From a virus, in IMG/VR virus record IMGVR_UViG_3300035665_000300, positions 1-20,013 of that record: a stretch of 20,013 bases of DNA, one strand, 5' to 3'. Made by a program: the position numbers and the translations under genes. This document shows positions 1 to 19,042 of the stretch, in pieces; the stretch's first letter is position 1; each line of letters begins with the position of its first letter. The notes beneath the pieces were generated by a model, which did not search any database, had not been told where the DNA came from, and was given only the letters and a program-made list of their open reading frames with translations.

Positions 1-2861
1 CCGTACAGGCTTTGCAAGTTATTCACCGCGTTGCTTACACCCTGGGAATCTACTGCGGCTTCACGCAATTCGGTAGCGTCCTGGACCCCGGAGACCGGTG
101 ACGTCGTAGCTGTCGTGCTTTTCCCTACTGCAGCACCTGCTACCGCTTGAGTGAGTGCCCTGTTCACATCGATATCGCGGCCGAGAGCCACATCCACCGC
201 TGCTGAAGCGAAGCCCTCTTGCCCACCCTCGGTGACTCCCTCAGCGCCGACTCTTCCGATGCCTTTAGAGACCACATTGTCGAGTTTACCAAGCGCGAGA
301 TCGCCAAGCTTGCCGATCGTTAATTGCACTGCTGCTTCAGTAGCCCCAGCGGCGAACCCTGCTTTGCGAGCATCGGCAAGTGCGTCGCTATGATTTTTAC
401 CGGCCTTTACCGCATCGTCGTACGCATCAATGGCTGCACCACCTGCGGTGTCTTTGGTGTCGACGAGCCCACTGGCCACTAGCACACCACGCGCCGTGCC
501 ACCACCAAGGAAAAGTGCGGGTAGCTCTTGACGAAGTTCAACCGCCGTTTGTCTTCCGAGTCCGCTCGTTCCATCGATGATTCGACCGGCGATCACTCCG
601 AGCTTTTCGAGGCCTTGCGCTTGGTCCACCAGCTGCAGGGTGTCGTTCCAGTTCTTAGTGTCTTGTGGGCCGGTGCCGATTGACTGCCCAAGCTTGATTA
701 ATTCGTTTCCGCCCTTAATGAAAGCGTCGGCCACAGGTTTGTTATCAAGCATGAGCGCGGTGCCACCGATCACATTCTTCTGCAACTCCCCTGCGGCTTC
801 TAGTGCGGTACTCACCGACTGAGTAATCGGGGAATTTGGGTTATTCTGCAGGTAAGCGTTCGCGGCGTCACTGCTGAGCTTCATCTGGTTCGAGAGTGCA
901 TTCGACAGATTCTGGAAGAACCCGGTGGATTCTACAGGCTTCGCGCTTTGTGCAGCAGCAAGTGCATTTGCGGTGTTGAGAAGCGCGGCTTCCTGCTCGG
1001 CTGTCTTACCCGAGGCCACACCCCGACCACTACCCTCAACTGGGGTAAGACCCAGTTTCGGATCTTCTTGGAAGGTCGCAGTGCTGTAAAGCTTTCCTTG
1101 GAAATTAAAGGTGGAGTTAGGACCGAATGCTTCTCTCGCTGCAGCGTAGGCAGCGCTGAAATTCGGAGCGTTTGAGATCTTCTCGCTCACCGCCTGAGAA
1201 GCACCCGCTCCTGCGAACTCTCCGGCTCCTGCCTTGATTTCGCCCGTACCCACGGCTTCCCCCGCACCCATTCGCACCGCTTCTTGCGCATTCGCGATTT
1301 GGGTAGCGAGCGCTTGCCCTGCGGTAGCATCCACGAGATCTGGATCGTAGCTGGTGTCGCGCGAAGTTGTAACTGCCGCTGGCGCTACCGCACCGGTGGT
1401 CACTGCCTTTGAGACTTCGAATGCGGTCTGGTCGTCTGCTCCTGCGGCTTTAGCGGCGGTGAAGGCCGAAGCTCCTAAATCCTGCTTGGCGTCAAGACTT
1501 TCTTGTCCGGCAGTCGAGAGCGCAGCGACCTGGGAATTCGCGGTCGCTTTATCGATGGTGCGAGTGAGATCTCCAGCTGCCATCACCGCTGCGTTAAAGT
1601 TACCGCTCTCCACCGCTTTTATTACCTTAAGTGCGGTCGCGGCGGTTTGCATGTCGGTACTGCCGGTGAGCTTCGAAGCCGAATCCAGTGCTCCTACCAA
1701 ATCTCCGGACTGAATCTTGGTAATCGTACTCGCGGCGTTCAACGTGTCGCCTAGTGTGATGTTACCGCCTAGGCTCGTTCCTGCCAGTTCCGCCCCCATT
1801 GTGGTTCCGGCCAGGGTGGAGAGTGCACCCATGACATTACCCTTCTGCGCGGCATCTGCAGCTCGAAGCACAGCAGAGGCATCCGCGAATCCACCGGCCC
1901 CCAATAGGCTTGCCCCAGCACCAAGCACGTTGCCTTGGCTGGCTGCAATCACCCCATTTAGCACCTGAGCGAAGGGAGCAGTTGCAGGGATAAAAGAAAG
2001 AATCGTTAATGCCGGTCCGACTTTATCGAGATCGCTAGTACTGACTCCAGAGGTCGTGATCTTGGGACCACCCTCGCCAAGCATCAAGTTGTACATTGTC
2101 CCACCGGGTCCGGTGTAGGTGGAACCAAATGTACTGCTGAATTCTTTCCCGGTCGGGTCGATCAGGCCTTGCCTCTGCGTACTATAATCACCTTGTTCGG
2201 TGACCTCGGTGTCTTCAAATGTGTGGGCTTTCAATTCTCTTAGCTGGTCAACGTTTGTGATTCCGGAGTCGATCAACTGTCTTGCCATATCAATTACGAC
2301 TTGCTCAGCAGAGGAGGGGGCACGCCCCAACACCGCCGCCGTTTGGTCAAAGTCGAAGCCTACCGACTGGCCCTGAGTGCCATAGACTCCACCTTTAGAC
2401 TGTTTTAGATCGACCAATGGGGCTAGTGCACTTGCGAAGCTTAGTACTTGCTTCGTGTCGTAGGTGTTTCCCCGGTAATCGGTCATCTTCGTCGGATCAC
2501 CGACTGAGATCGGAATTCCGGAGTCCTCTTGGTAGGAGTCCTGTTCAGTATAACCATTCGAGCGCTGTAACGCTCCACCCCCAGAGGTCGTGGTCCCGCT
2601 GGCTAAGGATCCCAAGGGTCCGACGCCCGGAACACCCCCGGCGGGAGCGCCCATGTTATCGTCAATCGTAGGAAAGTAGTCACTAAAGCTTCTGCCGGTA
2701 GCGCGTAAAATGTCTTCATCACGCACTAAAAATTCGGCCATCGCAGCCTTAGTCGCCTCCTCGGTGGGATTGTTGGCGAAGAAGTTACGAATATTTTCGT
2801 TCATCGCCTCAAGGCCTATACCGCTGGGTTCAATCGCGTAGTCGTAGGCGTATTTGGTCAT
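1..2861 (-). CDS. Giant Ala/Gly-rich virion protein, probable ejection (internal virion) protein, 3' end outside window
   Basis: The frame is open from the ATG at 2861 to the left edge: 953 complete codons without a stop, C-terminus missing. The ATG overlaps the TAA of the 80 aa gene (TAATG). Residues 18-57 form a small helical motif ending in ILRATG, of a kind I recall in many environmental phage proteins. Residues 71-130 are Gly/Ser-rich linker. Residues 280-360 are hydrophobic and Gly/Ala-rich, and 305-430 hold about four degenerate helical repeats built around a (Q/E)xG(N/D) core. Near 874-883 lies an EGVTEGGQEG motif followed by an Ala-rich helix, typical of very large phage virion proteins. 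Size, composition and position after the nozzle gene suggest a protein injected with the genome. No peptidase, transglycosylase or polymerase motif is visible here; an enzymatic domain could lie in the missing part. The gene is certain, the role inferred. Confidence 0.85.
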   Translation of the reverse strand, partial: MTKYAYDYAIEPSGIGLEAMNENIRNFFANNPTEEATKAAMAEFLVRDEDILRATGRSFSDYFPTIDDNMGAPAGGVPGVGPLGSLASGTTTSGGGALQRSNGYTEQDSYQEDSGIPISVGDPTKMTDYRGNTYDTKQVLSFASALAPLVDLKQSKGGVYGTQGQSVGFDFDQTAAVLGRAPSSAEQVVIDMARQLIDSGITNVDQLRELKAHTFEDTEVTEQGDYSTQRQGLIDPTGKEFSSTFGSTYTGPGGTMYNLMLGEGGPKITTSGVSTSDLDKVGPALTILSFIPATAPFAQVLNGVIAASQGNVLGAGASLLGAGGFADASAVLRAADAAQKGNVMGALSTLAGTTMGAELAGTSLGGNITLGDTLNAASTITKIQSGDLVGALDSASKLTGSTDMQTAATALKVIKAVESGNFNAAVMAAGDLTRTIDKATANSQVAALSTAGQESLDAKQDLGASAFTAAKAAGADDQTAFEVSKAVTTGAVAPAAVTTSRDTSYDPDLVDATAGQALATQIANAQEAVRMGAGEAVGTGEIKAGAGEFAGAGASQAVSEKISNAPNFSAAYAAAREAFGPNSTFNFQGKLYSTATFQEDPKLGLTPVEGSGRGVASGKTAEQEAALLNTANALAAAQSAKPVESTGFFQNLSNALSNQMKLSSDAANAYLQNNPNSPITQSVSTALEAAGELQKNVIGGTALMLDNKPVADAFIKGGNELIKLGQSIGTGPQDTKNWNDTLQLVDQAQGLEKLGVIAGRIIDGTSGLGRQTAVELRQELPALFLGGGTARGVLVASGLVDTKDTAGGAAIDAYDDAVKAGKNHSDALADARKAGFAAGATEAAVQLTIGKLGDLALGKLDNVVSKGIGRVGAEGVTEGGQEGFASAAVDVALGRDIDVNRALTQAVAGAAVGKSTTATTSPVSGVQDATELREAAVDSQGVSNAVNNLQSLY

Positions 2862-3103
2862 TATTTCACCGATGTGCTAACAACATTAACTAATTCAGCT
2901 GCCCAGTCTTTCCAGTCGTCGAAAACGTAAGGACTCGGTACCGCATCTTTTACGAATACATCGATTCCGGCGAATCCTGCAGCCCAAGATTTCCAATCGT
3001 CTTCGCTCCCTGGAATCTCGAGCTGCTGTGCACCGTAAGCCTCGACCATGAGCGCCGCCCAAGAGTCCCAGGTGTGGTAGCGGGGGTCGTAAACGAGCGC
3101 CAT
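2861..3103 (-). CDS. Small virion-module protein with three WxxWAA motifs, function unknown
   Basis: This 80 aa protein has three copies of a Trp motif: W12-x-x-W15-A-A, W37-x-x-W40-A-A and W64-x-x-W67-A-A, spaced 25 and 27 residues apart. Each copy is preceded by a short acidic or aromatic stretch (DPRYHT, GSEDD, FDD). It therefore looks like three copies of one small helical unit. Start and stop are both coupled: its ATG overlaps the TGA of the nozzle gene (TGATG) and its TAA overlaps the ATG of the giant protein gene (TAATG). It has no signal peptide or membrane segment. I recall similar WxxWA proteins near tail genes of environmental phages but know no assigned function. A linker between nozzle and ejection protein, or a chaperone for the latter, would fit the position; this is inference. 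Confidence 0.8.
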   Translation of the reverse strand: MALVYDPRYHTWDSWAALMVEAYGAQQLEIPGSEDDWKSWAAGFAGIDVFVKDAVPSPYVFDDWKDWAAELVNVVSTSVK

Positions 3104-5106
3104 CAGGAGTAACCTCGGACATCGCCAAGGTCTGCACTCAGCAGCAGCTTTCCGAGTTGATAGTTACCACCGGCGACATTCGACACGAACTGCAGCCGAA
3201 GCTCTCGACGTTGCTCACGTAGGTCGATTTTGGTGGTAGAGGAATCGAAGGTGTACGGCCCCGTGGTGTCGTCTGACCCCTGCGCATAAGATCGACCCTT
3301 GACGTACATTTGCATTTCGCCGGAGAGAATAAAATCAGGTTCTACGCGCTCCAGGTGCAACCAATTATTCTGGCCGGTCGGTGCGGGTTCCGAAGGACCA
3401 CCCGAGACCCACCCGAGGTCATTAGTCTCGAAGTAAGACTCGATCGCAAGCACCGTCGTGCCACTCACCTCGTCGGTCCCGTATTCGTGTTGCCACATGG
3501 TGACGTAATTCCCGACCGTAGCGACGGTGAGCACAAGCCCAGCACCAGCGGGGATTGAAGCGGAGAGTGCGTCTCCGACCGTGTAGCCCTGCCCTGGATT
3601 GTAGATGATAGCCGAGGTGATCACGCCACCGGCGACGATGATGTTCGCGGTAGCTCCCGTTCCAGTACCGCCCGTTAAGGCTTGATTGTTGTAGGTACCG
3701 TTCGTGTATCCAGCACCAGGATTCGTGATCGTGAGACTCTCAATACCGTTCGCTGAAGTGATATCATCACCAGTCTCGATCGGTCGGGCGAACACTTGCG
3801 AGAAGTACCCGGCGGATCTTCGTGCACCAACTGCAGTACCGACGTCGTACCAGCAGTTTTCGCGAATATTATAAATGACCGCGTCGTTACACTCGGACTC
3901 AGATGACCCATTCGGGAAGAACCACCAGACTTCGCCAAATCTGGGAACCTTGGTAACCCACACCTTTTCGCGGTAGTTGTAATTCAGATTATCAAAGAAA
4001 TAGTTCTGATTAAACGGATTGGGGATCTCTTTAACCACCCCGTTGTACAACAGGAATCGATCAACGCCGCACCAGTAGTAAATGCCGTCGTATTCGATGA
4101 CGCATTGCGAAGACATGATCGAAGACTGAGTCGAAATTATGTCGTAGCGCCAGTATTGGGTGACCGTAGTCGCTCCTGCGGTAATCGAGGTCGGAGCGTA
4201 ACTGACTCGAACCAAAGAGTCCAGCGACCAAAAAAGTCCCGAGGGTGAATTAGAGCCACCCCGGACAGGGAGTCCTTGAACGATTTTACCAGTAGCGACG
4301 TTCACCTCGTTCGCATCAGCGGTGACCCAGTCCTGGAAATTACCACTTGAGCAATTACGAATCAGGCCATTGTTACCATAGACGAACACATAGGGATGTA
4401 GGACCACCACGCCACCCGAGACGCTGACGTTATTATCAAAGGTGAGTGTGGCTGCACCGGTGGTCAAGGCGTTGGTCGAAAATGTCACCGTGGTGCCTAC
4501 GATGCTCACTACCGTGGTACCCGCCGCGAAATTAGTGGTCGGTCCTACAGTCTGCCCCGCGCCGATAAGCGGATTCGCAGCTGCAATAGTACCCGTGTTC
4601 GAACCGGTGGTGAGAGTGACCGAGTCGGTAAACGTTCCGATCTTCCCAAGCGTCGATCCCGTGATGTCGCCAGCCAGCACCGGGGTGTTCGCCGAGCTGT
4701 TAAGATCCGCGAGATTCTGCCCGGGATGTGCAAGAAGATAAGTGAGTCCGGAACCCAGTGTGTCCGTGAAGGAGTCGAATTGCCAAAGGTTATTCGCGCT
4801 GGCCGTGAAATCCGTAAGTGTCATGTCGGACACCCCGGAGCCCACACCGCTGTTATCTACAGGGGTCTTCTGAAGACCACCCGAGTAGCCAGTGAACACA
4901 TTATTTAGCACTCCCTGTGGATTTACGAACATTCCTCGCACTGGCCCACGAATAGAACCGGTGATTTTTGAATACCCGCCGATTTTTCTGGGTCTTCCAC
5001 GTTGGAATCGTACCCATCGACCGTCGGTGTAGTACAGCTTGTCGAAAAGCGTGCCATCCCGCTGAATCCCGGGCTTCGTATCTAAAGCGAAGACTTTAGA
5101 GGTCAT
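3103..5106 (-). CDS. Tail nozzle / DNA-stabilisation-like structural protein (beta-propeller type)
   Basis: This 667 aa protein is rich in aromatic residues and beta strands. Its N-terminus (residues 15-60, with QRDG, LYYTDGRWVRF and RPRKIGGY) and its centre (320-430, with EYDGIYYWCGVDRFLLYNG and VWWFFPNG) resemble the propeller-like nozzle or P22 gp10-type DNA-stabilisation proteins of short-tailed phages, which close the tail tube. Two stretches look like added beta modules: 145-228 (GTTVVSIVGTTVTFST type) and 455-532, which carries two NPGxGYTxG motifs at 462-469 and 503-511. The propeller-like sequence resumes after the second one (EYGTDEVSGTTVLAIESYFET). The gene follows a fibre-like gene, with its ATG overlapping that gene's TAA, and precedes the WxxWAA and giant protein genes, an order that fits a tail tip. 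The assignment rests on motif resemblance, not a search; a general tail protein is the alternative. Confidence 0.65.
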   Translation of the reverse strand: MTSKVFALDTKPGIQRDGTLFDKLYYTDGRWVRFQRGRPRKIGGYSKITGSIRGPVRGMFVNPQGVLNNVFTGYSGGLQKTPVDNSGVGSGVSDMTLTDFTASANNLWQFDSFTDTLGSGLTYLLAHPGQNLADLNSSANTPVLAGDITGSTLGKIGTFTDSVTLTTGSNTGTIAAANPLIGAGQTVGPTTNFAAGTTVVSIVGTTVTFSTNALTTGAATLTFDNNVSVSGGVVVLHPYVFVYGNNGLIRNCSSGNFQDWVTADANEVNVATGKIVQGLPVRGGSNSPSGLFWSLDSLVRVSYAPTSITAGATTVTQYWRYDIISTQSSIMSSQCVIEYDGIYYWCGVDRFLLYNGVVKEIPNPFNQNYFFDNLNYNYREKVWVTKVPRFGEVWWFFPNGSSESECNDAVIYNIRENCWYDVGTAVGARRSAGYFSQVFARPIETGDDITSANGIESLTITNPGAGYTNGTYNNQALTGGTGTGATANIIVAGGVITSAIIYNPGQGYTVGDALSASIPAGAGLVLTVATVGNYVTMWQHEYGTDEVSGTTVLAIESYFETNDLGWVSGGPSEPAPTGQNNWLHLERVEPDFILSGEMQMYVKGRSYAQGSDDTTGPYTFDSSTTKIDLREQRRELRLQFVSNVAGGNYQLGKLLLSADLGDVRGYS

Positions 5107-6302
5107 TAAAATGCGCCCCCGGCTAGGCCCTCGGAAGTCAAAAGGAATTTATTCACCCCAGTCACTGCGAATGCTAATTGACCCGCTGCGGGACGCCAAA
5201 GCCCGGTACCGGTTTCGGAGGCGAAGGACAACGATGGTGCAGTGACAGTGCCGTCGACGAGAGTCACCGTTGCCGAAGTCACCGAAGCCGAACTCGCGGT
5301 GTAAAAATTCGTACCGTCGCAAATTACCGTGGCTCTTGTGCCTTGCGCCACCGCAGTCGTAGCACCCAGGCCAGTGCTCAGAGTCAGCGTGAATGAACCC
5401 GAAGTCTGATTGTTCACTACGTAAAGATTCACGACCGGGGGATAAATCACCATAGCATTGCTGGTAAGAGCCCCGGTGAAGGTTTGGATATTGTTTTGCG
5501 CTTCGCTTGAATTCAACGTTGTCGTACCACCCGGAGCGACGGATTTCACTAAGGCTGTGAAAGCGAAGTTCGCATTAACCCCATAGCCGACCGTTATATA
5601 AGCGCTGCCAGTACAGACGATGAAGGACGACTCCCCGGGATTGTAGACCTTAGCCGATGCCCCATCAATAAGCTCGGCACCAGTCGTCGAGACCGTGAAT
5701 GCGCCAGTGCCGTTGTTTTTAAACAACGCGAACCAGTTGTCGCCCAACGTCGCTGCAGCGGGTAACGTGTAACTCCCAGCACCGCCAGACCAAAGTAGTG
5801 TTTGTGCGCGATCGGTGGTCGCGAACGTACCACCCGAAGAAGCTGCGAGCACTGGGTGGCTTTGATTCAGCGTCGTCGTAATCGCCAGGAGCCCTTTACC
5901 CGCTAGTGCTGCCGCGTCAGCACCCGAAGATCCGATCCCGAATGCGATTACGCCCCAAGTACCCGCAGCCGTGGAATTCGTGGTGACGTAGACGTACTGC
6001 GCTTCTCCAGCGGCGATGGAAACTATCGTATTTCCAGCGTTATCAGCTACCGTGAAAGAACTAGCACCTAGGTTACGTATCAGCGAGTCAGTGCCTACCG
6101 AAGTCGCGTTAGCCGCAGGCATTCGCAGCGTGAGCCCCGCAGTCGTCGGTAGCACCTCCATGATTCTCGAGGCGTACGTCCCGGTGTTGCTGTTGGCCAG
6201 GGGCCATTCCAGCGTCGTGTTCGTCGAAAGTGTGAACGATCGGTAGCTTACATCAGTAGGCTGGACGATGTCGCCGGTAAAGGGGGAGACGTAAGTTGGC
6301 AT
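5106..6302 (-). CDS. Tail fibre or appendage protein
   Basis: This 398 aa protein is low in charged residues and rich in Thr, Ser, Ala and Gly, as in trimeric beta fibres. The N-terminus (YVSPFTGDIVQPTDVSYRSF) resembles phage appendage proteins. Around 350-390 is the module ASETGTGLWRPAAGQLAF, common in fibre proteins including those carrying S74 chaperones. The protein then ends in GLAGGAF with no S74 domain. The start lies one base after the TGA of the adaptor gene (TGATATG) with only a weak upstream ribosome site, so re-initiation is likely. The last Gly codons (GGG GGC) give a purine-rich stretch before the overlapping start of the nozzle gene. It probably forms a fibre or spike attached near the adaptor-nozzle; receptor and partner are unknown. 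Confidence 0.75.
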   Translation of the reverse strand: MPTYVSPFTGDIVQPTDVSYRSFTLSTNTTLEWPLANSNTGTYASRIMEVLPTTAGLTLRMPAANATSVGTDSLIRNLGASSFTVADNAGNTIVSIAAGEAQYVYVTTNSTAAGTWGVIAFGIGSSGADAAALAGKGLLAITTTLNQSHPVLAASSGGTFATTDRAQTLLWSGGAGSYTLPAAATLGDNWFALFKNNGTGAFTVSTTGAELIDGASAKVYNPGESSFIVCTGSAYITVGYGVNANFAFTALVKSVAPGGTTTLNSSEAQNNIQTFTGALTSNAMVIYPPVVNLYVVNNQTSGSFTLTLSTGLGATTAVAQGTRATVICDGTNFYTASSASVTSATVTLVDGTVTAPSLSFASETGTGLWRPAAGQLAFAVTGVNKFLLTSEGLAGGAF

Positions 6303-6303
6303 A

Positions 6304-6933
6304 TCATGTATCCACGGCTACGGCTTGACGATCGGCGATGCGGAGCTTGTCTTCGGTCTTGAGTTCGGCGACGTATTTATCGTACATCGACTGCCAAGTC
6401 GGAATCCGGGGGTCGTTCTTCAGGAACGGCATAGCTTGCAGGAGCGACCCGTAGAGCATAGCTTGGGGCGCGTATTCGGTAAACCAATTGGTTTGATTCG
6501 TGGAATCCAGCGGTACCGGACGCTCGTAGTAAAGCACTTCGAAAGCGTAGGCTGCAGCCGGGGTGGGTCCAAGAAACCAGTGCGTGTAATCGTAGTCCGC
6601 GTAGTAGAGCGGGACGTCGGTCTCGGTGGGGTCGGGCCAATAGTTCCGTATATATTCGTAGCGACGTTCAAGCACCGGTCGACGTTCACCCGCTACAGTT
6701 ACATTGATGGATACCGTTTTGCGCCACCTCGCGGGTTTAGCTACCACCGGGTCACTTGCGGTGAGTGTGGACGTATCGACCGTGAGGTTCCCGAGAAATT
6801 TTATCTCTGCCGCCAGGATCTGCTCAGCTAACATTATGAACGTCGGAATCTTATCAATAGTGGCCGTATCCGTACGTTCCAAGTAGGATTGGACGTCCGC
6901 AGCGAGGCTCGTATAAGTCATCGTTACTGCCAT
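6304..6933 (-). CDS. Head-to-tail adaptor protein (SU10/T7 gp11-like)
   Basis: This 209 aa protein begins with two helices (residues 8-48, including IPTFIMLAEQILAAEIKFLG). A beta region with Arg/Tyr pairs follows (RRYEYIRNYWPDP), then the segment FLGPTPAAAYAFEVLYYERP and a closing helical region (TEYAPQAMLYGSLLQAMPFL to the end). This helix, beta sheet with a G/W-P-x-P turn, helix arrangement is what I know from adaptor proteins of short-tailed phages, which form a ring below the portal. The length fits. It follows the lysozyme gene with a 4-base gap; AGG in ATGAGGTAA supplies a ribosome site 7 bases before the ATG. A second protein with a similar plan is encoded at 14279-15355. The family call is from memory of sequence patterns and should be tested by structure prediction. 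Confidence 0.75.
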   Translation of the reverse strand: MAVTMTYTSLAADVQSYLERTDTATIDKIPTFIMLAEQILAAEIKFLGNLTVDTSTLTASDPVVAKPARWRKTVSINVTVAGERRPVLERRYEYIRNYWPDPTETDVPLYYADYDYTHWFLGPTPAAAYAFEVLYYERPVPLDSTNQTNWFTEYAPQAMLYGSLLQAMPFLKNDPRIPTWQSMYDKYVAELKTEDKLRIADRQAVAVDT

Positions 6934-8685: not shown

Positions 8686-8943
8686 TTAGTAAGCCGATCC
8701 AGCAGTAATAGCAGCATTGACAGCAGCGAGTTCGTAGCCCGTCCACCAAGGCTTATCGCGCATGATCTTGAGGTGTTCGACGTTGCGGGAAACAGTGCCC
8801 TTCGCGTCGTCGTTCTTGGTGATGGTGCGGCCTTGGTAGCTGCCTGCCACATAGCCGTTGATGAGATCCACCGAATCGCCCATCGCTGAGAAATGGCGGT
8901 CAAGCTCTTCTTTTGCGGGGATTTCAATAACTTCAGACATCAT
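8686..8943 (-). CDS. Small protein after the S74 fibre gene, function unknown
   Basis: This 85 aa, mostly helical protein has no membrane segment or recognised domain. Its end reads WWTGYELAAVNAAITAGSAY, with a Trp-containing helix. Two ATG codons stand side by side at 8943 and 8940. The first overlaps the TAA of the S74 fibre gene (TAATG); the second is better spaced (7 bases) from the GGAG formed by the fibre's last codons. The protein differs by only one Met. Genes directly after fibres often encode fibre chaperones or small accessory proteins, but S74 fibres carry their own chaperone, so I do not assign that role. Confidence 0.72.
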   Translation of the reverse strand: MMSEVIEIPAKEELDRHFSAMGDSVDLINGYVAGSYQGRTITKNDDAKGTVSRNVEHLKIMRDKPWWTGYELAAVNAAITAGSAY

Positions 8944-11519
8944 TAAGCTCCTTTGAGGGTTGCGATTTCAGCTTCGGCTGCTTCAAGCCTTGCAGTAAGT
9001 TCTTGGACTGCTTTGACTAGCACAGGGACTAAGGACTCGCCTTGGTATTTCAGCTTTTCAGGGACTTCTGTGTCAATAATGACCGGATCATCGCCTTCAA
9101 GAGCAAGAATGTCTTGCGCTAAAAAACCGTACCGTTTGTTTCCGTTTGGCGTTTCATCTTCTCTTGATGTTTTGAATTGAAACGACACGGGGTTAAGTTG
9201 ATTGATAAACCCAAGACCATGCGGTACGGGTTGGATATTTGTTTTGTCTCTTGCGTCTGAAACAACTGTCCATGCAACTTGAACGTAGGCGTTGGTGATC
9301 GCCGTATGCCCCATCACCAACCGGTTATTTTCGGTCGTGACGTTGAACACAGGGTTGTAGTTAATGCCTGCGCCTTCCAAACCGCCGACTTGAATATTGC
9401 TGCTTCCCGTAGTGCAGTTGTAGAGCGCGTATCCTCCAATTGCTGTGTTGCAAACTCCAGTGGTATTTGCTTGAAGTGCTTGACTACCCAATACAGCATT
9501 CCAAGCTCCGGTAGTGTTTGAATCCAAAGCGCCATACCCAACAGCCGTGTTATTTGCGCCGGTGGTGTTGGCGAAGAGGGCTTGAAAGCCGATTGCTGTG
9601 TTGTTGTTTGCGGTGCTATTAGCTTGAAGCGCATCATATCCAAGAGCAGTGTTGCCACTACCAGTGGTGTTGCTAGACATCGCTGATCGACCAATACCGG
9701 TGTTGTATTCTCCAGTCGTATTGTTTTGTACGGAACGTGCCCCAAAAGCAGCGTTGTAGTTACCCGTTGTGTTAGCGCCGAGAGCGTTAAAACCAACAGC
9801 AGCGTTATCCAACCCCGTCGTATTTGCATCCAACGTCGCATAACCAACTGCTGTGTTGTTAGAGGCGGTGGTGTTGGCGGCGAGAGTCTGATAACCAACA
9901 GCGGTGTTGTTTGCGCCAGTGGTGTTGTCGATAAGCGCTTGATGACCGACAGCGGTGTTGTTGGAGGAGGTGGTGACTCGAAGTGCCTCATGGCCAACTG
10001 CGACGTTGTAATTGCCGGTGCTGTTGGCACGAAGTGAAGCGTTCCCGATAGCTACGTTATAAGAACCGGTGGTGTTTGAATGAAGCGCTGCGTATCCGGT
10101 ATTACTATCCTCTGTACCAAAAGCGACGTTATTGACGCCAGTGTTGTTACTGCCTAATGCTGTACGTCCAACAGCGACATTCGCAGACGCCGTGTTATAC
10201 CGTAAGGCAGCGTAACCAACGGCAACATTTGAATTACCTGTACTGTTGGTGGAAGCCGCTTGAAAACCAAGAGCGACGTTATAACCACCTGTAGTGTTGC
10301 CGGAAGCTGCTTGATAACCAACAGCGGTATTGCTTGGGCCAGTGGTATTGTTGTAGAGGGCAGCGTATCCTACTGCATGATTAAATGTGCCGGTTGTGTT
10401 TGCTTGTCCAGCAAATGCGCCAACAAACAAACTATCACTAGCCTTGTTGTTTAACCCTGCTTGATAGCCAATCGCTACAAAGTATGAATTTGTTTGGTTT
10501 GCATTACCGGCTTGATAACCAACAGTGGTGTTGCCTGCGCCAGTGGTGTTGGCGTTGAGGGCTTGATAACCCACCGCAGTGTTGGTGGACACAGCACCTG
10601 CGCCACGGCCTACCCGGACTCCGTAGATCGTCGCATCACCCGTGTCTACAACCAGCTTGCTGCCTGTGACGGCAGAGGTGGTCCCAACCAGCAAGTTGCC
10701 CGAGGAGTCGATACGCATCCGCTCGGTTGAAGTGGCAGAACCATCGGGTGTCGTAAAGAACATTAACCGTCCCGGCATATCATTTGCGCCGGGGGTTCCA
10801 TCTACATGCCCACGAATACTTGCGGCCTCTACAAATTCGGTTCCGTCTGCGCCTTGGAAACTAATAGCGCCTAATCCATCACCTGAAGCAACGGCAGTGT
10901 AATCGTTATTAGCAGTTCCACGGCTTCGTCCAAGAAATAATAAAGAAAAAACATCAGCAGATGTTCCGGGGTTAGTTGCTATAGATATGCTGCTATTGCC
11001 CCCGCTAACAGATCTTTCAACTTGAAGTAAATTTGAACCAATTGTTGAGTTATCCCATTTATCACGATCTGTCGTAGCATTGATCAGCACCTTACCGCCC
11101 GAGAGAATACGCATCCGCTCGGAGCCATCAGTACTAAAAGCAAGCGTATTGGTCGTTGGCAAATACATGCCATTACCCGCAGTGACATTACCTGTGGGAA
11201 TGAGTTTGGTAGCGGTTACCGTACCGCCTGATGTTAAGTTCGTGCCATCAAAAGTAAGGTTTGAAGATCCAGCAAACGCACCAGCATTGTTGTACTGAAC
11301 TTGCGTGGTGGAGCCACCGGGGGAGGTCCCTCCAGCAGTTGCGGAGCTTGCAAGTAGCGTGACAACGCCCGATGAATTCTTGAAATAAAGTTTGCCGTCT
11401 GCGTAATTCAACGCCAGTTCGGCGCCGTTTGAAGAAGACGTGAGATTGCCTGCCGTAGGTACCGCCGAAGCAGTTCCGCTGCCATAAATGAGGATTGGGG
11501 TATAACCTGACTGGGCCAT
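8943..11519 (-). CDS. Long tail fibre with about 23 head-type repeats and C-terminal S74 intramolecular chaperone
   Basis: This 858 aa protein has an appendage-type N-terminus (1-60), then fibre modules with the STERMRI-DSSGN-LLVGT pattern at about 131-148 and 264-281. Residues 313-707 are about 23 tandem units of 16-17 residues with consensus NTAVGYQALxANTTGxx, resembling the left-handed beta-roll head repeats of trimeric autotransporter adhesins. The C-terminus (752-858) is an S74 peptidase/chaperone: SDARDKTNI with Ser754, NPVSFQFK, YGFLAQD at 797-803 and a final heptad coiled coil. In this family the domain helps the trimer fold and then cleaves itself off before the conserved Ser. The start overlaps the stop of the 805 aa fibre (TAATG) with GGAGGT 8 bases upstream. 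It is probably a host-binding fibre; the receptor is unknown. Confidence 0.9.
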   Translation of the reverse strand: MAQSGYTPILIYGSGTASAVPTAGNLTSSSNGAELALNYADGKLYFKNSSGVVTLLASSATAGGTSPGGSTTQVQYNNAGAFAGSSNLTFDGTNLTSGGTVTATKLIPTGNVTAGNGMYLPTTNTLAFSTDGSERMRILSGGKVLINATTDRDKWDNSTIGSNLLQVERSVSGGNSSISIATNPGTSADVFSLLFLGRSRGTANNDYTAVASGDGLGAISFQGADGTEFVEAASIRGHVDGTPGANDMPGRLMFFTTPDGSATSTERMRIDSSGNLLVGTTSAVTGSKLVVDTGDATIYGVRVGRGAGAVSTNTAVGYQALNANTTGAGNTTVGYQAGNANQTNSYFVAIGYQAGLNNKASDSLFVGAFAGQANTTGTFNHAVGYAALYNNTTGPSNTAVGYQAASGNTTGGYNVALGFQAASTNSTGNSNVAVGYAALRYNTASANVAVGRTALGSNNTGVNNVAFGTEDSNTGYAALHSNTTGSYNVAIGNASLRANSTGNYNVAVGHEALRVTTSSNNTAVGHQALIDNTTGANNTAVGYQTLAANTTASNNTAVGYATLDANTTGLDNAAVGFNALGANTTGNYNAAFGARSVQNNTTGEYNTGIGRSAMSSNTTGSGNTALGYDALQANSTANNNTAIGFQALFANTTGANNTAVGYGALDSNTTGAWNAVLGSQALQANTTGVCNTAIGGYALYNCTTGSSNIQVGGLEGAGINYNPVFNVTTENNRLVMGHTAITNAYVQVAWTVVSDARDKTNIQPVPHGLGFINQLNPVSFQFKTSREDETPNGNKRYGFLAQDILALEGDDPVIIDTEVPEKLKYQGESLVPVLVKAVQELTARLEAAEAEIATLKGA
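9399..10583 (-). repeat. Coding tandem repeat of about 51 bp in the S74 fibre gene
   Basis: The fibre gene contains about 23 consecutive units of 48-51 bases, each encoding 16-17 residues of the pattern N-x-A-V-G-Y-x-A-L-x-x-N-T-T-G-x-x. One unit near the middle is seven residues longer (24 residues, containing EDSNTGY). Units differ at the positions between the conserved Gly-Tyr and Asn-Thr-Thr-Gly elements, so they are diverged repeats, not recent perfect copies. The DNA repeat could allow unit gain or loss by recombination. Confidence 0.9.
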
Positions 11520-13936
11520 TAGAAGGCACCTCCATAAATACCTGTTGTTGCGGTCACTGTCGTAAACGTACCTGCCGCTGCCGTGGTTGCACCGATCGTT
11601 GTGCCATCAATCGTACCGCCCGTGATCGCCACACTGCTTGCGTTTTGCGTCGACATGGTACCCAAACCCGAGATGTCCGTGTTGGGGATACTGGCCGAGG
11701 CTGTGAAGGCTGAAGTACCGTTACCCTTAACGTAACCCGTTAAAGTAGCGGCCCCGGTGCCGCCATTGGAGACCACAAGCGTACCACCTAGTGTTAGGGT
11801 TCCGCTTGTAGTGATCGGGCCTCCAGAGAACGTCAGGCCCGTCGTGCCGCCATCGGCAGAGACCGAAGTAACCGTACCGCCAAAAGAAGGGGTGGCGGAA
11901 ATCGTAATGCCGCCTGCCGTATTGCTGATGCTGACATTAGTTCCGGCCGTTAGCGTGTTGAGCGTGTAGCCCGAGCCGTTACCGATTAAAAGCTGGCCGT
12001 TAGTGGGCGTTCCTGTAACTCCAGTGCCGCCGTACCCGATACCGATCGTTGTGGCATTCCAGGTTCCTGCCGTCAGGGTTCCAACGCCCGTGATGCCAGT
12101 ATAAGAGCCCGTAAGACGCGCCGTGTTGAGTGTTCCTGAGGAGATGTTCGAGGCGTTGGTCGTATCCGTTGTGGCCGACGCTGCAAGGCCTGAAACCTGC
12201 CCGGAAGTGATTGCAATCGACACGTCAGTCGCAAGGGTTAGCTGCCCTTGAGCGTTGACTGTAAAGGTCGGAACCGTAGCCGCACCGCCATAGGAGTTCG
12301 CGGTAACCCCGGTATTAGTAATGCTGAACTGCGTACCGGCAAGCGTAAGACCCGTTCCCGCGCTGTAAATCTGCGCAGACGACACCTGCACAAAGGTGAT
12401 CGCAGTCGTGCCGAAAGTGATCGTCCCCGAGGTGTTGCAAACGTAAGTTTCACCCGCGCCGGTAAGCCCCGAGGTGACGAAGAAAGCATCGCCTTCGCCA
12501 AGTGCGTTGGGGTCCTTGAGGCCGTAAGAGTCAGCGTCAGTCGCACGAGTGAGTACCCAAGCGATCGATCCACTACCGACCGTGGTGACCGTGTAAACGC
12601 CGTTTTGGGCAGGGGCGGCTTGGTTATAAACCAGGATTCGATCGTTTACCGAAGCTGTAACGCCGTCGGGCGCAAAAGCCGCCAGGGTGCCTGCGTTGGT
12701 AAGCGTGGCTCCGACGCCTGCAGTGCCGTTGTTATAAGTCGCGGTCAGTGCGCTTGGCGCTTCGTACTTGACTGGCGTGTGATAAGTGATGCCAGAGGCC
12801 GCAATCGTGTCGACATACGACTTGTTAACGATGTCGGTCGCGTTCGTTGGGGTGGTACTAATCGTGCCCGTCGTGGTCGTGACTGAGGTAAACGTACCCG
12901 CAACAGGGGTCGACCCGCCAATGATCGAGTTATCAATCGTAGAACCCGAGATCGTCGCTGCGATCGAGCCGCCGGCAATAGAGACCGAGCCCGAATTCTG
13001 CGTGGACATCGTCCCCAGGCCGGTAATGTCCGTGTTGGGGATGGTCGCACTTGCAGTCATCGCGGTAGTGCCGGTGCCCTTTACATAGCCCGTTAACGTA
13101 TTGGTACCTGTACCTCCGCTACTCACGTTCAGGGTGCCAGCTAGAACAATGTTACCGTTGGTTGGCGTGGACGGAGTGAAGCCGGTAGCACCCGCGCTAA
13201 AAGATAAGACGCCTCCGGCTAATGAAAACTGCTGCCAAGACCCCGAGGTATAGCCTTCAAACTGGGACAGGTCCGCATTAAAACGGAACTGGCCATCAAT
13301 ACCGCCGGGTCTTTGCGCCGTAGTACCCTTGGGCACTTGTATTGATCCCGTACCCGGAATCACCGGATCTGTAGCAATGGCGAGAGTGGGGTTTCCGGAT
13401 ACCCCATTTCCGTTGGTAACGTCTATCTGATTCGCGGTCCCCGCGATTAACCGAAGTCCAGCGGTGGTACCTGCGTTGACGAAAGGAATTCCCGAACCAC
13501 CAAGATTCGCGAAAGCCGCAGCGAGACCTGAAAGCGAAAGTGTAGGATTCGCCCCAGTCCCATCGGCATTGGCGATTGTGAGTCCTGCGCCTGAAGTCGC
13601 TATTTGGCGTGCGACAATGGTAGAAGCCCCGGATTTTACGATAATCCCTGCACCTGCAGCCTCGAGCGATCCAGAAGCACCGTTCAGTGATAATCGCAAA
13701 AAAGAAAGCGCCCCACCGTCGGTTAACCCAAGTCCGGTGTTTACCGCGAAGTAACGACTGTTTGATAATGAAAGCTCCTGATTTACGGTCAGGAACGTTT
13801 GCGTTTGACTGGGTGTAGCAGCTATCGCACCCGTGGTAGTCTGAACGGTTTGACCATTCTGTACGACCGGAACGATTTCCGAGCCTGTGATAGCACCTGC
13901 TGGAGGCAGCTGATTAATTGAGATTTGTGCGGCCAT
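11519..13936 (-). CDS. Large tail fibre protein with internal duplication
   Basis: This 805 aa Gly/Thr/Ser-rich protein starts with a motif shared with the 194 aa appendage (ISxxxPxxxxTGxExxPxVQxGxxVQxT), probably a virion-anchoring segment. Residues 200-240 hold a [20 protein letters not shown]-type module. A segment at 269-357 is repeated at 719-799 ([17 protein letters not shown], [15 protein letters not shown]). Between them, 388-517 resembles a widespread phage fibre module with [14 protein letters not shown] and LTRATDAD motifs. Low charge and repeated beta patterns suggest a trimeric fibre. There is no S74 domain; the protein ends in GIYGGAF. Its start lies one base after the TGA of the zinc-ribbon gene (TGATATG) with a weak ribosome site. 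It is likely a fibre shaft or adhesin; how it relates physically to the S74 fibre that follows is not shown. Confidence 0.85.
11528..11533 (-). promoter_or_regulatory. Ribosome binding site GGAGGT inside the end of the 805 aa fibre gene
   Basis: GGAGGT lies 8 bases before the ATG of the S74 fibre gene. It is formed by the two Gly codons of the fibre's C-terminal GGAF, and the stop TAA overlaps the next ATG. This settles the start of the S74 fibre at 11519. Confidence 0.85.
11540..11782 (-). repeat. Second copy of a duplicated fibre segment
   Basis: Encodes residues 719-799 of the 805 aa fibre. It is similar to residues 269-357 of the same protein through [17 protein letters not shown], [20 protein letters not shown] and AAGTFTxVTxTTG. 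This copy is about eight residues shorter because part of the first copy (around [11 protein letters not shown]) is lacking. Confidence 0.8.
12866..13132 (-). repeat. First copy of a duplicated fibre segment
   Basis: Encodes residues 269-357 of the 805 aa fibre and is the partner of the copy at 11540-11782. The two copies are separated by about 360 residues of unrelated fibre modules and have diverged at many positions, so the duplication is not recent. Confidence 0.8.
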
Positions 13937-13937
13937 A

Positions 13938-14279
13938 TCAGGTGCTCGGAGTCAAGGGGTTGATATTTCCGTTATTACCCGGGGTGTTGTTATTCTGCGT
14001 AGAAGAAATTTGCAGATTGTTCCCTGTGCTAGTAACCAAATATTCGTTCGTATCCGCCACCGATTCGTCTGGGCGAGGAAAACGCAGGTTTATCCGCTCG
14101 GTCTTTCTGGCTGGTAATCGGTAGGGGTCGAACTGGTCAGCGCAACCCTGGTCGCAGACTCGAAGTCCCGGAAAATTCGGGTCCTTACGCATGACCGAGT
14201 AGTAACGTTTCATCTTGCATCGATCGCAAATCGCGATAGCCAGCGAGGAGTTACCGGTGGTATCGAGAAAGATCGGCAT
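13938..14279 (-). CDS. Small zinc-ribbon virion-module protein
   Basis: This 113 aa protein has a four-Cys zinc-ribbon pattern: Cys18-x-x-Cys21 in AICDRCKMK and Cys42-x3-Cys46 in RVCDQGC, separated by a basic stretch with LR-V before the second pair. I recall similar ICDRCG...LRVC proteins in environmental phages, without assigned function. The C-terminal third (about 83-113) is rich in Asn, Ser, Thr and Pro and looks disordered. I use the ATG at 14279, which overlaps the TAA of the adaptor-like gene (TAATG), rather than the 11-codon longer frame that overlaps it further. It sits between the adaptor-like gene and the 805 aa fibre gene. It could be a small structural plug or connector protein or a nucleic-acid binder; neither is shown. 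Confidence 0.78.
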
Positions 14280-15355
14280 TATCGTGTGTACACGGCGATG
14301 TTTGGTGCCCAATAAATCGGGGACTTGTCGCGCTCTTCCTGCTCGGCCTCGTTAAAATACTGGTCGGCGAGTTCTTTCAGGTACTTCGCACGGTCTACGG
14401 CGACTCCAGGGAGCGAAAGCGACATATGCTGCGCGAGCATGTACTGAATGGCCAAGCACCACCGATCGGGGATCTCGAGCGTGTTCGAAAGCTTACCTAC
14501 GTCCTGGACGAGCCGCGAGTACCAGACGGTCATCTGGATAAAAGCATCGCTCGGCGTTGGCCACAAGTAAAGCGTGGGCTTCGGGATCGTACGATCAAAC
14601 CAATACTGGTAGGGCTGGTTCGCGGTGAAGTTCTTATTGGGCAAGTTCGTGTAGTCGTCGCGGTTCAGACGGGCCATCTGAATCTCTCGGCTATTGTTAC
14701 CCAGGTAGAACTCTCTGAGTGCAAGCGTGGTACCTCCGGAGGCCCGGACGCGGTATCCGGTGACATCCTGCCCTGGATCTATATCGGTCCAGAGCCACTG
14801 ATTATCGGTGACGGTCACGGTCCCCAGGTCTTCGAGCGTATTCCAAGTCACTCCGAGATCGTTCGAGTATTCAAGGATCAGCGTCCAAACCGCATCACCA
14901 CCCCCTGAAACATAAGGGAGAAGTCCAATGGAGCCTATGTACTGGGGGTTCCCCGACCCGTACTGAACCGAGATGTTACCATTCGTCGACGTTTGCTGGC
15001 AGTAAGTACTTGTATCACTATCAAAAGCAAAAGCCACTGTCCCACCCGCCGAAGTCGCGTATGTACCCGAGGGTCGATTCATCGTGCGGTAAAGCACGTT
15101 GAGCGCGTCATTCGAACCTAACGGTAATTCGTACTGGTACTGGTCAGGCTTGAGGCCGATCACGATCTTGTCGATCGCCCAATACTGAATGCCTTTGTTT
15201 ATCAGCGCCGAGAGCAGAAAGGTGAGATTCTGCTTGGCCGATCGAGTCTGTTCATTGGTAAGCTCTTCCGCGAGTTTACCGCACTTGCGAGCACCCTCGT
15301 CTATGAACTCTTGAACCGTTACTATTGTGGTGCCGACTGTACCCGAAGTCGTCAT
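14279..15355 (-). CDS. Adaptor-fold neck/tail protein with inserted discoidin-like domain
   Basis: This 358 aa protein has N-terminal helices (14-60, VQEFIDEGARKCGKLAEE to YWAIDK), a beta strand pair, and a C-terminal part (226-358) with DDYTNLPNK, YQYWFDRTIPKPTLYLWPTP and the helices EIPDRWCLAIQYMLAQHM and DRAKYLKELADQYF. This is the same helix, sheet, W-P-x-P turn, helix plan as the adaptor at 6304-6933. Between these halves, about 100-219, is a domain with AFAFDSDTSTYCQ, YIGSIGLLPY, WTLILEYSNDLGVTWNTL and GYRVRASGG, which strongly resembles F5/8 type C (discoidin) carbohydrate-binding folds. The start follows the SFCARM gene by nine bases with AAAGGA 5 bases before the ATG. It is probably a neck or tail ring protein with a surface binding domain; the ligand is unknown. 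Confidence 0.75.
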   Translation of the reverse strand: MTTSGTVGTTIVTVQEFIDEGARKCGKLAEELTNEQTRSAKQNLTFLLSALINKGIQYWAIDKIVIGLKPDQYQYELPLGSNDALNVLYRTMNRPSGTYATSAGGTVAFAFDSDTSTYCQQTSTNGNISVQYGSGNPQYIGSIGLLPYVSGGGDAVWTLILEYSNDLGVTWNTLEDLGTVTVTDNQWLWTDIDPGQDVTGYRVRASGGTTLALREFYLGNNSREIQMARLNRDDYTNLPNKNFTANQPYQYWFDRTIPKPTLYLWPTPSDAFIQMTVWYSRLVQDVGKLSNTLEIPDRWCLAIQYMLAQHMSLSLPGVAVDRAKYLKELADQYFNEAEQEERDKSPIYWAPNIAVYTR

Positions 15356-18127: not shown

Positions 18128-19042
18128 TTAGACGCCAGGAGTGCCGTACATCGCCCGAGGATCGGTGAAGCCGACGTCGTAACGCTCGGTCGCCTTGTAG
18201 CGCATCGAGTCAGTTTCGAAGTCACCTTCCATCGTCTTCTCAAGCGCACGACGCATCATGAGCTTCATGCCTTCCGGAGCATCGGTCTGCACCCACCAAG
18301 CGGTAGCGGAGGTAAGACGCGAAAGAACGGCTGCACCCTCGTCGAGCAATCCAATGGATTTGACGGGGTTGATGTCGTTGTTCGCGGTACCTGCGCGGAG
18401 CACGGACTTGAGCAACACTTCGGCCTGGAAGACGTTACCGGGTGCGACCACCAACTGGCGAGGCACGAGGCGGATCTTCTTGCCGTTGTTGTCCACGGCC
18501 TGACGGACCTGGATCAACATCTGCTCAAGCGAGGTCTGCGAAAGGTTTGCAGCGGTCGTCAACTGGTTACTAAAGGTACCGTTAACGATCGGGTGCGATG
18601 TGTTGATAAGCGACACACCATCACCACCTGGGTAGGAACTGTTGAAAGCACGGTTAAGCACGTTCGCCGAAAGCGTCTCTTTGGTCTCGATTAAAGACTG
18701 TGCGAGGTGCTTGGCGTAAACCTGACCGATCCGGATGTGGTCGCCGTCTTCCACGAGCACTTTGGTCAACGCGAAGGCCAAGCCATAAACGTTGTACACG
18801 TAGCGCTTCAGGAAGAGCACGCCGCCCTGCTGATAGGTCACCGGAGTGCCATCAGGCAGTTGGGGTGCGGCACCAAATCCGTACAGGACTGGTTCTTCGT
18901 GGTAATTACGAGGAATGCCTTGTTCCTCGCGGAAGACTCTCGACCACTCGTCCTTGCGTTGCTCGTAAATACCGTCGAAGCATTCGTTAAGGATAGGCTC
19001 GACTATCGACCGAAAGTCGGTACTGCGCATCGGGGCTGCCAT
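18128..19042 (-). CDS. Major capsid protein (HK97 fold, Mu gpT-like)
   Basis: This 304 aa protein is the shell-forming subunit. It has an N-terminal acidic helical segment (10-45, IVEPILNECFDGIYEQRKDEW), an E-loop-like region with Gln/Gly (60-80, PDGTPVTYQQGGVLFLKR), a spine-helix-like stretch (100-135, HIRIGQVYAKHLAQSLIETK) and a central domain containing HPIVNGTFSNQL, LVVAPGNVFQAEVLLKS and WWVQTDAPEGM. The end, ERYDVGFTDPRAMYGT, is typical of gpT-type capsid proteins. It shows no protease or long scaffold domain, so scaffolding must come from elsewhere, perhaps beyond the right edge. A very strong ribosome site (AAGGAGGG, 7 bases before the ATG) fits a highly made protein. It follows the decoration-like gene by 13 bases. 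Confidence 0.88.
   Translation of the reverse strand: MAAPMRSTDFRSIVEPILNECFDGIYEQRKDEWSRVFREEQGIPRNYHEEPVLYGFGAAPQLPDGTPVTYQQGGVLFLKRYVYNVYGLAFALTKVLVEDGDHIRIGQVYAKHLAQSLIETKETLSANVLNRAFNSSYPGGDGVSLINTSHPIVNGTFSNQLTTAANLSQTSLEQMLIQVRQAVDNNGKKIRLVPRQLVVAPGNVFQAEVLLKSVLRAGTANNDINPVKSIGLLDEGAAVLSRLTSATAWWVQTDAPEGMKLMMRRALEKTMEGDFETDSMRYKATERYDVGFTDPRAMYGTPGV

Follow-up and report, generated by a model that had tools for sequence, protein, structure and literature searches.

A giant open reading frame at the edge of an uncultured phage contig: a candidate pilot protein with a conserved C-terminal module

The locus and its genes

The window analysed in this study is the whole stretch of 20,013 nucleotides of IMG/VR virus record IMGVR_UViG_3300035665_000300 (positions 1 to 20,013). 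Its features are listed below, with coordinates in the window.

3..2861, minus strand: first 953 of the 1,490 residues of the slot protein ('giant'); contig L004 (9353-13825) supplies the other 537 codons, which are outside the window
2691..2810, minus strand: helical motif near the N-terminus (residues 18-57), also present in other slot proteins
117..1184, minus strand: central conserved domain, residues ~560-915, including EGVTEGGQEG; found at 38 loci in viral contigs
1065..1172, minus strand: small helix-plus-hairpin module, residues ~564-599 (pLDDT ~80 and profile)
213..242, minus strand: EGVTEGGQEG, residues 874-883 (sequence and alignments)
2861..3103, minus strand: 80-aa gene (g80) between nozzle and slot protein, conserved beside the nozzle
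3103..5106, minus strand: tail nozzle, 667 aa (PDB 8zkk 'nozzle gp16', E 4.1e-9; phrog_3287)
5106..6302, minus strand: 398-aa tail protein (phrog_12796, tail fiber protein, E 2.4e-10)
6304..6933, minus strand: SU10-type head-to-tail adaptor, 209 aa (PF24175, E 6e-24)
8943..11519, minus strand: tail spike or fibre with a Peptidase_S74 chaperone end (profile matches)
14279-15355: protein of 358 aa, in which a borderline F5/8-type C domain (carbohydrate-binding-like) precedes a borderline SU10-adaptor domain
18128..19042, minus strand: major capsid protein (PF25209, E 2e-11)

The order of transcription is capsid, 358-aa protein, S74 spike, holin and endolysin, SU10-type adaptor, 398-aa protein, nozzle, 80-aa gene and giant. 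By eye, the product of the 80-aa gene has three similar stretches containing Trp and Ala (DDWKDWAA-like). The 358-aa protein is a second adaptor-like protein besides that of 209 aa.

The minus-strand frame at 3..2861 has 953 codons, starts with an ATG and is free of stops to the left edge of the window. Where it joins the 80-aa gene upstream, the sequence is AAATAATGACC, a TAA/ATG overlap, and the giant frame with its TAATG-coupled start was thus as the initial annotation had described it. Sixty shuffles of the window gave stop-free runs of at most 316 codons, so that a run of 953 is far beyond chance. Sixteen loci in the search were relatives of the window. In the slot-protein frame the window and one of these (L005) differ at codon positions 1/2/3 by 17/8/108 bases, in 98 synonymous and 24 non-synonymous codons; since the differences fall on third positions, the frame is coding. 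A frameshift, an artefact or a non-coding frame is ruled out by the shuffles, the third-position bias and the synonymous excess. Judged by these substitutions, the body of the protein is under purifying selection within close relatives.

The frame was completed with IMG/VR contig L004, which is identical to the window at 12,213 of 12,213 overlapping bases. It shows no early stop to the left of position 1 and continues for 537 codons, to give a protein of 1,490 residues. The frame in the window is the N-terminal two thirds of this protein, which belongs to an uncultured bacteriophage of short-tailed type. Its first 953 residues are rich in Ala and Gly, as had been noted (28% together; Ala 16%, Gly 12%), and the N-terminal helical motif (residues 18-57, ending in RATGR) and the EGVTEGGQEG stretch (from residue 874) lie where they had been placed. 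From residue ~1,010 on the protein is Thr-rich, with 44 Thr within residues 1101-1200, and in this stretch the L004 gene contains a 30-base tandem repeat (3.7 copies). The protein ends in a module of ~90 aa, located outside the window (residues 1340-1490 in alignments A2 and A5).

The full protein had no match in Pfam, PHROG or NCBIfam at the thresholds used and none among PDB sequences; residues 1-953 alone had no database match, and a PDB profile search with the central domain gave no meaningful match. The two AlphaFold models were of low confidence (mean pLDDT 39 and 54), and residues ~564-599 were the only part modelled at pLDDT ~80. This helix-plus-hairpin module occurs once in the window protein and up to three times in relatives. 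Among the ORFs of the fetched loci, with overlapping loci included, it was found in 72 proteins (114 copies); the profile of the N-terminal helical motif ('nhel') matched 66 proteins (76 copies), contigs in overlapping loci being counted more than once. Short peptides of the two small modules matched nothing in the phage collection.

An enzyme such as a transglycosylase, protease or polymerase had been suggested for the missing C-terminus. That suggestion fell with the completed frame, in which no catalytic domain was detected over 1,490 aa by Pfam, PHROG or NCBIfam. In the relatives scanned (47 of 54 after dereplication) the sole enzyme-like match was a weak one to a NonGDSL lipase-like family (E 5.7e-4). 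Nor is a membrane or glycine-zipper character claimed for the family, since the counts were not clearly above composition-preserving shuffles: hydrophobic 19-mers occurred in 45 of 67 slot proteins (48.7 expected) and GxxxGxxxG in 52 of 67 (42.9 expected).

Downstream of the giant, contig L004 encodes a homologue of phrog_4287 ('DNA ejection protein'; the ejection homologue below), two large proteins, a primase and a helicase. The SU10-type adaptor family is present in nine of nine related records, and the related record G003 has terminase and portal homologues. No labelled tail tube or tail-assembly chaperone was matched among the scanned proteins of the window, L004 and G003, many of which are unlabelled. 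In gene content, the set has the layout of a short-tailed phage. PDB profile searches with the three proteins of the ejection cassette gave no meaningful match. Peptidase_M23 was found in two of five proteins of the second cassette family (ej544) that were scanned (L134 7303-9045 and L121 7553-9445), and was not found in that of L004. Its presence in these two downstream genes supports the view that the cassette may be an envelope-crossing machinery.

The slot family

The slot family was defined as proteins with the C-terminal module that are encoded between the nozzle and the ejection homologue. The L004 protein has the module at its end, the nozzle and the 80-aa gene upstream and the ejection homologue directly downstream. 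A profile of its last 151 residues found at least 445 loci in viral contigs. The best 80 were kept and 76 of these analysed, the other four being contigs already included. A scan of genome contigs yielded two loci only, both in metagenome-assembled genomes (titled beta proteobacterium and Limnohabitans).

Among the best loci, the module ended 0-8 residues from the stop in 76 of 76. The ejection homologue lay directly downstream in 73, and in the other three (L101, L126, L143) the contig ends at most 121 bases past the stop. In 63 of the 66 loci that are intact on the 5' side, the first gene recognised upstream was the 80-aa gene, in some with intervening sequence; it was the nozzle in one, and none was recognised in two. 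The module profile matched 123 of 6,782 ORFs of the fetched loci, and 118 of the 123 were directly upstream of the ejection homologue (overlapping loci are included, so contigs are counted more than once). The flanking gene set was unchanged over slot proteins of 351 to 2,028 aa (66 proteins). Their length had a coefficient of variation of 0.45; that of the nozzle was 0.14 and that of the ejection homologue 0.11.

Conservation was compared in 25 contigs with complete genes, dereplicated on the nozzle (300 pairs); the body was taken as the whole slot protein minus its last 110 residues. In 297 of the 300 pairs conservation was higher in the module than in the nozzle, and in 299 it was lower in the body than in the ejection homologue. 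Among the 22 pairs whose nozzles share 70-95% identity, median values were 0.91 (module), 0.78 (nozzle), 0.49 (ejection homologue), 0.29 (next gene) and 0.12 (body). The body was below the next cassette gene, ej544, in just 194 of the 300 pairs, so that ej544 also diverges fast. The L007 slot protein is 90-97% identical to that of the window, with ~320 additional residues after residue 93. The body is thus replaced or resized among relatives, and one C-terminal module is common to the family. Since the body is under purifying selection in close relatives, replacement explains this divergence and relaxed drift does not. Hypervariation driven by a diversity-generating retroelement was considered and set aside, a PF00078 reverse transcriptase being found in none of 10 records, a weak result as several of these are fragments.

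The same order of nozzle, module and ejection homologue was found with profiles in named phages: GB2A, ctpbd312, DSL-LC04, Planktothrix phage Pag-Yong1, HTVC027P and 023Pt_psg01. It was also found in ct7L0027, with one annotated gene separating module and ejection homologue. CRP-901 has a related nozzle and the adaptor, with no match to the module. In HTVC104P the module lies near the end of gp81 (L157 6144-7445), which is encoded outside the slot, between portal and capsid genes; a gene next to the portal can therefore code for the module as well.

The nearest known counterparts include the slot proteins of the Caulobacter phages RW/RLK/KcrB/GB2A. GB2A_gp065c (580 aa) has the C-terminal module (E 4e-27), the nozzle upstream and the ejection homologue downstream, but its body is unrelated and it is 910 residues shorter; it is annotated 'tail length tape measure protein', and its counterparts in RW/RLK/KcrB are hypothetical. 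Pelagibacter phage HTVC027P gp82 (339 aa) likewise has the module near its C-terminus (E 1e-9), the nozzle upstream and a match to the ejection profile directly downstream, but a very short body and a strongly diverged module. The slot proteins of the 65,014-base cyanophage records (L153 8413-9297; H28-H30) are annotated 'extracellular solute-binding protein', 'calcium-binding protein' or hypothetical. The titles and abstracts of open-licence literature on tape measures, ejection proteins and nozzles contained no description of the family.

Similarity to tape-measure proteins

phrog_6090 was matched by 23 of the 47 members scanned, and every function-labelled family that matched at least four of the 47 was a 'tail length tape measure protein'. 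When six members were scanned singly, the match fell within the module in four; L121 and L130 had none at E 0.01. The tape-measure families concerned (PHROG 6090, 17300, 25241 and 23013, Douge gp16 and actinophage proteins) are matched over ~40-70 aa. A tblastn search with the module matched 68 phage records, and 49 of the 60 matches listed were annotated as tape measures: two were slot proteins and 47 lay outside the slot family, chiefly in phages of Arthrobacter, Rhodococcus and Gordonia. In the tape measure of Arthrobacter phage Faja the module profile matches ~75 residues before the end and in two other places. In that of Douge (gp16), profile A2 (7 sequences) matches two internal sites, residues 934-1003 and 1413-1449 (E 3.2e-6).

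According to PMC13033339, the C-terminus of the Douge tape measure is located in the lumen of the baseplate hub, the resolved hub-bound residues being 1658-1699, and tape measures are proposed to form trans-envelope channels. Since the matched Douge residues differ from 1658-1699, docking of the slot protein is proposed by analogy.

Slot proteins share with the tape measures of long-tailed phages a long body of variable length and, by analogy, the character of an ejected channel protein. Unlike these, they show no similarity to tape measures beyond the C-terminal module, and their genes stand in another context, preceded by the 80-aa gene, nozzle and adaptor and followed by the ejection genes, with no labelled tail tube or chaperone recognised. 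The initial annotation had set a tape-measure match against an ejected protein, and the outcome was divided: similarity to tape-measure families is present but confined to the final ~90 residues, in a gene set of short-tailed type. Its idea of a protein ejected with the genome is favoured by the position of the gene between the nozzle and the phrog_4287 homologue.

A candidate pilot protein and its alternatives

The slot protein is probably a tape-measure-like pilot or ejection protein that docks in the tail channel by its conserved end and has a body adapted to the host (probability roughly 0.55). We infer its presence in the virion, its docking and its ejection from gene position and from the analogy with tape measures. 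The C-terminal module would anchor the slot protein in the channel, close to the nozzle, just as the C-termini of tape measures dock in the hub of long tails. At infection the protein would exit first or alongside the ejection proteins, its long variable body may reach into the periplasm or the inner membrane, and the DNA would follow it out. Replacement of the body would then be an adaptation to the host envelope. Points against the pilot reading are the lack of a membrane signal in the family, the low confidence of both structure models, the mismatch with the hub-bound residues of Douge, the position of the module in HTVC104P, the lack of a module match in CRP-901 and the fibre-like repeats (Collagen) in some bodies. 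It is a more speculative and rather doubtful extension that one C-terminal docking module joins long-tail tape measures and a short-tail pilot protein and serves universally, where the tail opens to the outside, to anchor or load the protein, with the body swapped to fit the host envelope and the slot a hypervariable host-adaptation locus inside the virion.

If the pilot reading is true, one conserved module connects tape measures with the pilot protein of podophages and identifies the pilot gene where annotation is poor, in phages from several host groups (Caulobacter, Pelagibacter and Planktothrix, hosts as given in the records). Host range beyond the adsorption step might then depend on a hypervariable internal protein, and a single family would supersede the unhelpful annotations as tape measure, calcium-binding protein or solute-binding protein.

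The slot protein might instead be an ordinary internal ejection (core) protein, the fourth of a set of gp14/gp15/gp16 type, with the module a small recurring motif that has no docking role; we consider this possible but unlikely. Three cassette genes follow directly after its own; the first matches the DNA ejection family and the second carries the M23 domain in two relatives. Like the ejection proteins T7 gp14/gp15/gp16 and P22 gp7/gp20/gp16, it stands at the start of an ejection cassette and varies in size and sequence, as such proteins do according to section 4 of PMC8954989. Unlike these, it is an extra protein upstream of the cassette, has no lytic domain and shows no similarity to known ejection proteins (gp14/gp15/gp16-type; PHROGs, Pfam, NCBIfam and PDB sequences). 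This alternative is weakened by the module, which is better conserved than any other part and is found within 0-8 aa of the end in 76 of 76 loci; both features point to a specific binding role.

Less probable still is an external or plug-like part of the tail, such as a needle or fibre with its C-terminus inserted in the nozzle. The slot gene follows just after the nozzle, which is also the position of the P22 needle gene, and host-recognition parts are typically highly variable. Collagen was found in 3 of the 47 members scanned, DUF4214 in one and Dockerin in one, and tail-fibre PHROGs match a few members. However, needles and fibres usually dock via the N-terminus, whereas the conserved end of the slot protein is its C-terminus, and an S74 spike and further fibre-like proteins are encoded separately in the window. 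That the protein is a true tape measure of long-tailed phages, as the C-terminal module and the annotations in GB2A and DSL-LC04 could suggest, is very improbable given the SU10-type adaptor and nozzle in place of a tail tube, the lack of labelled tail-tube or chaperone matches in the window, L004 and G003, and the range of lengths beside the same flanking genes.

Public annotations of other genes were also noted. The ejection homologue of ctpbd312 (L027 16205-17443; profile E 4.5e-55) is annotated 'coronavirus S2 glycoprotein', a misannotation. That the RW-type phages are short-tailed has indirect support in the literature: PMC11053796 cites for RW a paper with 'the podovirus genus Rauchvirus' in its title. 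According to section 3.5 of PMC11053796, the gene for the major capsid protein had yet to be identified in the RW cluster. The hypothetical protein GB2A_gp085c (L026 3-854; 49457-50371 in the GB2A record) was matched by the capsid profile of the window with E 6.8e-187.
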